The notes beneath the pieces were generated by a model. It was given only the letters and a program-made list of their open reading frames with translations, was not told where the DNA came from and ran no database searches. This document shows positions 35,421-37,124 of a DNA stretch of 64,000 nucleotides, piece by piece. Location of the stretch: assembly GCA_023421735.1 (NCBI GenBank), contig JAEZSP010000087.1, forward strand, positions 1 through 64,000, in the 5' to 3' direction. Source of the DNA: Bacillota bacterium. GTDB taxonomy: Bacteria; Bacillota_A; Clostridia; Christensenellales; Aristaeellaceae. The position numbers and the translations under genes were made by a program. How positions within the stretch are numbered: position 1 is the stretch's first letter; every line of letters starts with the position of its first letter.

Positions 35421-35449
35421 TTGCCAAAATCATCCGTTTGTGATATGAT
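35421..35449 (+). promoter_or_regulatory. Promoter of the aspS leader
   Basis: TTGCCA and TATGAT are separated by 17 nt. The predicted transcription start near 35456 is about 20 nt upstream of the leader-peptide ATG. Confidence 0.65.
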
Positions 35450-35474
35450 ATTGTAAAACAACCGGAGGAACCAT

Positions 35475-35507
35475 ATGTTCATAAATGTCCGTGACGATGA
35501 TATGTAG
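35475..35507 (+). CDS. Candidate aspS leader peptide MFINVRDDDM
   Basis: An 11-codon ORF (ATG to TAG) with an ideal GGAGG six nt upstream. Codons 7 to 9 are GAC GAT GAT, three consecutive Asp codons, and codon 4 is Asn. The first real gene downstream is aspartyl-tRNA synthetase, and an intrinsic terminator lies between. This is the layout of a ribosome-mediated attenuator. Too short to be found by length-based gene callers. Confidence 0.6.
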   Translation: MFINVRDDDM

Positions 35508-35600
35508 CGCTTGATTCGCGAATGAAACCGCGGGTCGAAGCGCTTCGTTTCGTGCCGCGGGACTTCAAACCTCGCTCGCACGACGGGCGGGGTTGTTTTT
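35508..35600 (+). promoter_or_regulatory. Candidate transcription attenuator of aspS
   Basis: Three mutually exclusive stems are visible. Early stem: CCGCGG 35528-35533 with 35555-35560, enclosing CGAAGCGCTTCG. Antiterminator: TCGTGC (35550-35555) with GCACGA (35578-35583), continued by GCGGG (35557-35561) with CC-CGC (35570-35575, T bulged). Terminator: AACCTCGCTCG (35568-35578) with CGGGCGGGGTT (35584-35594), 11 bp with two G-T wobbles, then GTTTTT. The antiterminator shares bases with both others, as in classic attenuators. I could not work out which ribosome position favours which stem. Confidence 0.6.
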
Positions 35601-35691
35601 ATGGGAAGAGGTGATCCTATGCGGCAGTTTGACAATGCCGGGGTTGACGCGCGCATGCTTTTTCCGATATAAAATGAGGAGGATTCCCCTT

Positions 35692-37006: not shown

Positions 37007-37035
37007 TTGCAATGTGGGGAATGTTCCTGTATAAT
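37007..37035 (+). promoter_or_regulatory. Promoter of rplU-prp-rpmA
   Basis: TTGCAA and TATAAT are separated by 17 nt, with the transcription start expected near 37042. Confidence 0.7.
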
Positions 37036-37041
37036 TGTTGG

Positions 37042-37124
37042 GACAGCCGCACGGGACTGGCTGGTAAGTGCGCAAAAAGCGCCGCCTATACCCGGCGAGA
37101 TTGAGACATAGGAGGGAAACACGC
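37042..37124 (+). promoter_or_regulatory. Candidate ribosomal protein L21 leader
   Basis: The 5' leader of rplU can form CAGCC/GGCTG (37044-37063), GCGC-AAAAA-GCGC (37070-37082) and CGCCG/CGGCG (37080-37097); the last two overlap and exclude each other. L21 leaders that mediate autoregulation are known upstream of rplU in Firmicutes. I cannot test the consensus here, so this is a position- and structure-based call. Confidence 0.45.

Follow-up and report, generated by a model that had tools for sequence, protein, structure and literature searches.

The DNA described here is a 64,000-nucleotide stretch of contig JAEZSP010000087.1 (Bacillota bacterium, Clostridia), referred to as the window, and the element of interest is the leader of its aspS gene. 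The gene encodes an archaeal-type aspartyl-tRNA synthetase (AspRS). The leader contains two short open reading frames (ORF1 and ORF2) and pairing segments, numbered 1 to 5, that can form alternative hairpins. It is read here as a probable ribosome-mediated transcription attenuator that would sense aspartyl-tRNA (Asp-tRNA) and control aspS. From comparison with ten relatives and from folding, this reading is given a probability of about 0.86. The features are listed in Table 1.

Table 1. Features of the aspS leader and gene, with positions in the window.
Feature	Position	Strand	Basis
Sigma-70-type promoter, TTGCCA-17-TATGAT, with TG before the second hexamer	35421..35449	+	promoter scan, 10/12
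Shine-Dalgarno sequence of ORF1, GGAGG	35464..35468	+	read from sequence
ORF1, leader peptide MFINVRDDDM plus stop	35475..35507	+	sequence; relatives
Asp codons GAC GAT GAT in ORF1	35493..35501	+	codons 1 and 3 of the triplet are Asp in 11/11 leaders
Hairpin 1:2, 15 pairs, one bulge, -22.2 kcal/mol	35506..35544	+	folding, alignment
Hairpin 2:3 (predicted anti-antiterminator), core 35528-35560, -22.7 kcal/mol	35523..35567	+	folding
Hairpin 3:4 (predicted antiterminator), UCGUGC.GCGGG / CUCGC..GCACGA, -14.4 kcal/mol	35550..35583	+	folding, covariation
Intrinsic terminator 4:5 (35568-35594, 11 bp) and T-run (35596-35600)	35568..35600	+	terminator scan, covariation
Extended Shine-Dalgarno sequence of ORF2, AAGAGGTGATCC	35606..35617	+	sequence, alignment
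ORF2, MRQFDNAGVDARMLFPI plus stop	35619..35672	+	conserved start MR..D.AG..D in relatives
Hairpin at ORF2 start, CGGCA/TGCCG, GAY codon in loop	35622..35640	+	alignment
Shine-Dalgarno sequence of aspS, AGGAGG	35677..35682	+	sequence
aspS, archaeal-type aspartyl-tRNA synthetase, 428 aa	35692..36978	+	NCBIfam NF003483

The promoter scan covered the window alone. The codons of ORF1 in the window are ATG TTC ATA AAT GTC CGT GAC GAT GAT ATG TAG. Hairpin 3:4 occupies both the 5' arm and the loop of the terminator, and GTTTTT directly follows the terminator stem. The AspRS matches NCBIfam NF003483, aspartate--tRNA(Asn) ligase, with 428.6 bits against a cut-off of 353, and scores 342.6 bits with TIGR00458, under the cut-off of 368.4. 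The enzyme may be non-discriminating.

An earlier note on this DNA, made from its letters alone, had proposed an attenuator with an Asp-codon leader peptide, and comparison and folding bear this out as the probable reading. The promoter, the GGAGG, the three Asp codons, the 11-bp terminator with its T-run and the archaeal-type AspRS that it listed are all read directly from the sequence. Its 11-codon ORF is present, with a peptide of 10 residues plus the stop. The early stem, antiterminator and terminator share bases as it stated, with the antiterminator corrected to 35550-35583. The second conserved short ORF, ORF2, is absent from its account.

Relatives were taken from AspRS loci collected in a species-genome scan (the best 80 of 569 confirmed stretches), a family search (30 loci, in genomes partly overlapping those of the species scan) and an order search (29 loci). 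A filter for an Asp-rich short ORF with a Shine-Dalgarno (SD) sequence selected seven leaders (L003, L004, L020, L052, L087, L105, and L158). All seven contain an extended SD sequence, a start codon and a hairpin just before aspS. The motif of this ORF2 element is ATGCGG-N6-GAY-N-ATGCCGG, with a G-C pair in place of C-G in L158. A search with the ORF2 motif alone gave three further leaders (L148, L149, and L156), and all three carry a leader peptide with D-x-D. Each element was thus discovered from the other. The ten relatives share the arrangement of the window's leader, and their stem sequences differ.

Both the ORF1 leader and the ORF2 element are present in 11 of 133 distinct aspS upstream regions. 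By criteria fixed after examples had been seen, the other 122 regions contain neither, four of these having less than 250 nucleotides upstream. The exact ORF2 motif is present in 8 of 103 genomes of one family, every time before aspS, and in 2 of 391 genomes of a class sample, one being G001. L156 comes from one genome of an order represented by two genomes, and L158, with the variant motif, from an order sample of 396. A looser motif occurs in 7 of 398 genomes of a phylum sample, one again being G001. The other six matches were judged to be chance, five lying within long open frames and one (L222) standing without leader or aspS context. An earlier, shorter motif occurs in 2 of 297 order genomes, G003 and a chance site in G005. 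The one-mismatch sites that were opened (L150-L154) do not lie before aspS, and the class and phylum samples yielded no further leaders. In the genus of G001, an AspRS match was obtained in six of eight genomes; five have the leader, and one locus is cut short. G065 (L099), whose contig begins 57 nucleotides before aspS, was left unscored.

ORF1 is 10 to 17 residues long across the 11 leaders, and D-x-D is present in all of them. The first and the third codon of this triplet are each GAT in eight leaders and GAC in three. The D-x-D is there by construction in the seven filter-selected relatives and is independent in L148, L149, and L156. Conservation of the leader ORF and its Asp codons, which the earlier note had named as a check, thus extends to ten relatives. 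The control codons are cognate to the downstream gene and are kept as codons. ORF1, with its SD sequence and start codon, lies between promoter and terminator, as leader-peptide attenuation calls for. The significance that had been given to an Asn codon in the peptide is not borne out, as 4 of the 11 leaders are without Asn and the other seven have it at varying positions.

The distance from the Asp codons to the first stem is constant. In all 11 leaders, the conserved core of stem 1:2, starting with its first G-C pair, lies at +14 nucleotides, counted from the base with which the first Asp codon begins; in the window the first pair of 1:2 is at 13 nucleotides and the core at 14. The distance from the ORF1 start to the first Asp codon varies from 18 to 36 nucleotides, and that from the first base of this codon to the start of the stop codon from 9 to 27. 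A ribosome covers about 12-13 nucleotides past the first base of the A-site codon. With a footprint of this size, a ribosome awaiting the first Asp-tRNA would just spare segment 1, and a ribosome at the stop codon would cover most or all of it. In silico, and with this footprint, the position of the ribosome is predicted to select the structure. The earlier note had held that neither a stall at the Asp codons nor the stop codon covers the early stem, and had left the ribosome logic there. The first base of the stem (35506) is in fact inside the TAG (35505-35507), and what the scheme asks of a starved ribosome is that it keep off the early stem.

The stems are supported by covariation. RNAalifold, run on the MAFFT alignment A3 made from sequence only, recovers the terminator and, with 12 pairs, stem 1:2; of the 21 predicted pairs, 14 are compensated, with changes on both sides. 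Stem 3:4, in one fixed register, pairs in 86 of 121 cells, and shifts of 1 to 8 give 50 at most. In stems 1:2 and 3:4 jointly, 82.5% of cells are paired, a share that falls to 33-43% when the stems are slid. Their covariation score is 0.428, against at most 0.135 when slid by 1 to 3, and none of 500 shuffles scores as high. The terminator has 84.8% of cells paired and a covariation score of 0.602, against at most 0.212 when slid. Per-leader pair tables (from each leader's own folds; the first 48 nucleotides only for L158) lean to pairing, and the alignment-based tests are the ones relied on. The compensatory changes that the earlier note hoped for are thus plentiful. Stem 2:3 is predicted in the window, and comparable stems appear in the stop-state folds of other leaders.

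The terminator and hairpin 3:4 are mutually exclusive because they use the same 5' arm, and leader-peptide attenuation depends on an antiterminator and a terminator that exclude each other. In folds of growing length, window RNA that is free from 35506 forms 1:2 and then 3:4 by 35584, and RNA that is free from 35519 forms 2:3 and then the terminator. In each of the 11 leaders, the terminator's 3' arm gains less energy by pairing when the ribosome is stalled at Asp than when it is at the stop codon, the difference being 2.6-10.9 kcal/mol. The window leader folds at -58.3 kcal/mol, against a shuffled mean of -44.9 (z -3.5), and none of 200 shuffles is equally stable. With the terminator arm fixed and the rest shuffled, none of 300 sequences matches the window's first stem plus switch. 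The whole-switch shuffle test is passed by 0 to 2 of 300 shuffles in every leader other than L004.

The proposed attenuator would work as follows. ORF1 would be translated while the leader is being transcribed. When charged tRNA-Asp is scarce, the ribosome would pause once the first Asp codon has entered its A site, its leading edge just short of segment 1, and hairpin 1:2 could form. This hairpin would leave segment 3 for segment 4; the terminator would come too late, and the polymerase would enter aspS. When Asp-tRNA is ample, the ribosome would proceed to the stop codon and cover segment 1. Segments 2 and 3 would then pair, segment 4 would be released to segment 5, and transcription would terminate. 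A strict trp-type attenuator, in which the starved ribosome sits on segment 1 and 2:3 is the antiterminator, was considered and rejected. By the footprint given above, segment 1 is beyond the starved ribosome, and 2:3 frees the terminator.

Several results weigh against this attenuator. The antiterminator pairing alone is reached by 204 of the 300 shuffles of the window leader with fixed terminator arm. The antiterminator register has 28% unpaired cells, the number of additional pair types is equalled by 19 of 500 shuffles, and hairpin 2:3 has no common register across leaders. The SD sequence of ORF1 is weak or unclear in L156 and L158. In the stalled state, the best full-length fold keeps the terminator in 9 of 11 leaders (the exceptions being L004 and L020), and that of L158 loses stem 1:2. 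With the terminator persisting in these folds, the decision to antiterminate must be kinetic, and attenuators are generally thought to be kinetic. In L004, L020, and L148, the terminator arm before completion is equally paired upstream in the stop and stalled states, and 29 of 300 shuffles pass the whole-switch test in L004. These three are the weaker cases and are predicted to switch less cleanly. In the untranslated leader before terminator completion, the arm is paired upstream in 9 of 11 leaders, the others being L105 (0 of 16 bases) and L156 (2 of 11); this would mean read-through without translation. A covariance model of the ten relatives (R1) ranks the window leader first in the 64 kb (14.8 bits, E 0.005). 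A second window stretch scores 12.0 bits, and matches in 93 leaderless loci reach 16.1 bits, so R1 is too weak for searching. Ten R1 matches lie in other loci; that of L035 alone is just upstream of aspS on the same strand, and it spans the end of the preceding gene and a terminator. In species with runaway transcription, a phenomenon studied in Bacillus subtilis, RNA polymerases outpace ribosomes (PMC13323073), and the coupling of transcription and translation in the present lineage can thus only be presumed.

No part of the leader is better conserved in sequence than the ORF2 start with its hairpin. Across the 11 leaders, M1, D5, A7, and D10 are invariant, and R2 and G8 are each kept in 10. 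Position 6 is occupied by D, N, H, or Y, and the last two bases of its codon fall in the conserved stem. Asp codon 5 is GAT in 10 leaders and GAC in one, and codon 10 is GAT in two and GAC in nine. In seven leaders the frame ends between 19 nucleotides before and 4 nucleotides past the aspS start; in L052, L148, L149, and L158 it continues for at least 33 nucleotides beyond that start. Frames open to -16 number 9 of 11 (expected 6.8, P 0.13), and frames open to -22 number 11 of 11 (expected 8.1, P 0.02), the latter limit having been set after the window was seen. The open frames hint weakly at translation of ORF2. The stem has one fully compensated pair, which is equalled by 52 of 500 shuffles. 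Among Rfam families, none matched the ORF2 hairpin of the window or of the ten relatives.

Our favoured guess is that ORF2 acts as an occluding upstream ORF (uORF) gated by Asp; it may instead act by positive coupling, or as a binding site for AspRS or tRNA. Concealment of the aspS SD sequence by ORF2 was rejected, since folds in three ribosome states show no consistent change. An anticodon mimic or kissing site in the loop was rejected by inspection, as the loop sequences do not support it. Under a two-tier, Asp-decoding control, ORF1 would act on transcription and ORF2 on translation, and the cassette would be kept as the AspRS behind it is exchanged. The unusually strong SD sequence would load ribosomes on ORF2, which ends 22 nucleotides or less before the aspS start or beyond it. 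With ample Asp-tRNA these ribosomes would occupy the aspS initiation site, and with scarce Asp-tRNA they would stall on one of the Asp codons, 5 or 10, so that the site stays free. This two-tier scheme is put forward tentatively, and as a whole it is unlikely.

Distinctly less likely than the ORF1 attenuator is an arrangement in which control rests mainly on ORF2 and its hairpin, for instance through autoregulatory binding of AspRS or tRNA-Asp, with the attenuator secondary. The strong conservation of the element and its occurrence together with ORF1 in 11 of 11 leaders would fit. Its loop, however, carries an Asp codon (GAY) and not the anticodon GUC, and by inspection the neighbouring loop bases pair inconsistently with a tRNA-Asp anticodon loop. 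The element also stands before two AspRS types with 35% identity to each other, and the aspS SD sequence is not consistently sequestered.

More improbable again is an attenuator that responds to the binding of a protein or small ligand and in which ORF1 is only incidental. Similar alternative hairpins do serve riboswitches and protein-controlled leaders, but this would leave unexplained both the synonymous conservation of the Asp codons and the constant 14 nucleotides to stem 1 amid variable ORF lengths, and no Rfam family fits. A search of the Rfam 15 families over the window leader gave no match at gathering; when the threshold was relaxed to E 5, sR4 alone appeared, at 35643-35682 (11.8 bits, E 3.3), and was taken as chance. 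Still harder to credit is a plain promoter-proximal terminator with an upstream ORF and weak or absent regulation. Intrinsic terminators are common, GC-rich leaders fold easily, and the ease with which shuffles of the window leader attain the antiterminator pairing alone speaks for it; yet two mutually exclusive helices covary here, and they are conserved before two deep AspRS types. Least probable is a T-box, possibly shortened or degenerate, in which uncharged tRNA-Asp would bind the leader and stabilise the antiterminator: T-boxes commonly control aminoacyl-tRNA synthetases in Firmicutes, are matched before related aspS genes as given below, and could be suspected from ACCGCGG at 35527-35533, but the conserved features are a presumably translated ORF and the Asp-to-stem spacing, and the T-box model (RF00230), a check that the earlier note had suggested, matched nothing in the window leader, whether at the gathering score or with E relaxed to 5, and nothing in the ten relatives' loci at the gathering score (the laxer threshold was applied to the window only). 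The reading of ACCGCGG as a T-box was dropped, there being no T-box match at that place.

The genomes of the ten leader-bearing relatives are rich in T-boxes, with 7-20 matches each at E up to 0.001 and at least one above cut-off in each. An AspRS tree of 132 rows was built by a quick method, with L148 omitted for masked bases. The leaders fall on two deep AspRS types, which are 35% identical in the one pair compared. The first includes the window, L087, and the L003 group, and the second includes L149, L156, and L158, which form a group with 98% SH-aLRT support. In a sister type-B group of eight (99%), near the second type, a T-box match lies directly upstream in five of the seven loci tested (L175, L179, L181, L185, and L186). 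These matches are full length and under the gathering score; that of L186 (1114-1379) has 72 bits against a gathering score of 93, with E 8e-15. No T-box match was obtained upstream of L182 and L184, and L183 was outside the seven. From this distribution, the cassette either may be old and often lost, or may have moved, or may have had genes exchanged behind it.

G135 has both an aspS copy with the probable leader attenuator (L158) and an aspS copy with a T-box match (L186). Type-B AspRS loci without a leader or a T-box match (L161, L162, L163, L165, and L166) have 6S RNA matches within a few kilobases of sequence shared with aspS, with 44.9-64.8 bits against a gathering score of 46.4, L163 being just below it. 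Elsewhere in the window, an L21 leader (RF00559) is matched upstream of rplU at 37035-37112 (33.8 bits, gathering 36, E 1.5e-5), and a promoter-like site at 37007-37035 immediately precedes it. The 3' part of a bacterial class A RNase P RNA, truncated by the window start, lies at 1-174.

The probable attenuator has some wider bearing. Leader peptide and T-box are two solutions to the control of one enzyme and offer a natural comparison. The genomes are T-box-rich, yet the leader-bearing aspS appears to rely on codon reading. The leader also bears on whether ribosomes keep near enough to RNA polymerase for attenuation in Clostridia, and the constant 14 nucleotides are a precise probe of ribosome geometry.

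In the trp, his, and pheST leaders of Escherichia coli, a stalled ribosome selects the antiterminator or the terminator, and the his leader has chained, overlapping hairpins. The aspS leader resembles them in its ribosome-selected structures and in a his-like chain of overlapping hairpins. It differs in that their starved ribosome covers the first segment, whereas that of the aspS leader would have to stop before it. No protecting segment was seen in the aspS leader, and in 9 of 11 cases read-through is predicted when the leader goes untranslated. A Listeria paper reportedly names ribosome-mediated attenuation. In the literature searched, with most subscription journals outside it, no description of an Asp leader peptide at aspS was found. 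What appears to be novel is the amino acid and gene, the lineage, a segment 1 that is spared by the starved ribosome, and the linked ORF2.

The kind of mechanism is already known, since leader peptides have been published for hisZ and hisS* and for the Staphylococcus aureus ilv operon. One Shewanella screen has an entry for aspS with a 'tRNA synthetase leader'. The tRNA-dependent transamidation operon of Clostridium acetobutylicum (PMC4052509) is likewise a case of indirect amidation pathway control in a clostridium, but it is controlled by a T-box and has no leader peptide in the text available. The vmlR leader of B. subtilis shares with the aspS leader a uORF, an anti-antiterminator, an antiterminator and a terminator in a member of the Firmicutes. 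There, an antibiotic-stalled ribosome blocks the anti-antiterminator, which contains the uORF (PMC9226507), and the account available describes no sensing of amino acid codons. The ilv operon of S. aureus has a Leu attenuator peptide with genetic evidence (PMC5794164), and so is also leader-peptide attenuation in Firmicutes; it is a biosynthetic operon, for which the accessible part of that paper mentions no second ORF. Histidine leader peptides were predicted for hisZ and hisS* of bacilli (Naville and Gautheret 2010, PMC2965389). As far as that description goes, these share with the aspS leader an amino-acid-codon leader peptide and a terminator, a gene of a synthetase family, a place in the Firmicutes, and the replacement of a T-box. 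They concern another amino acid and gene and belong to Bacilli, whereas the aspS leader has a relay of hairpins backed by covariation and a second ORF.
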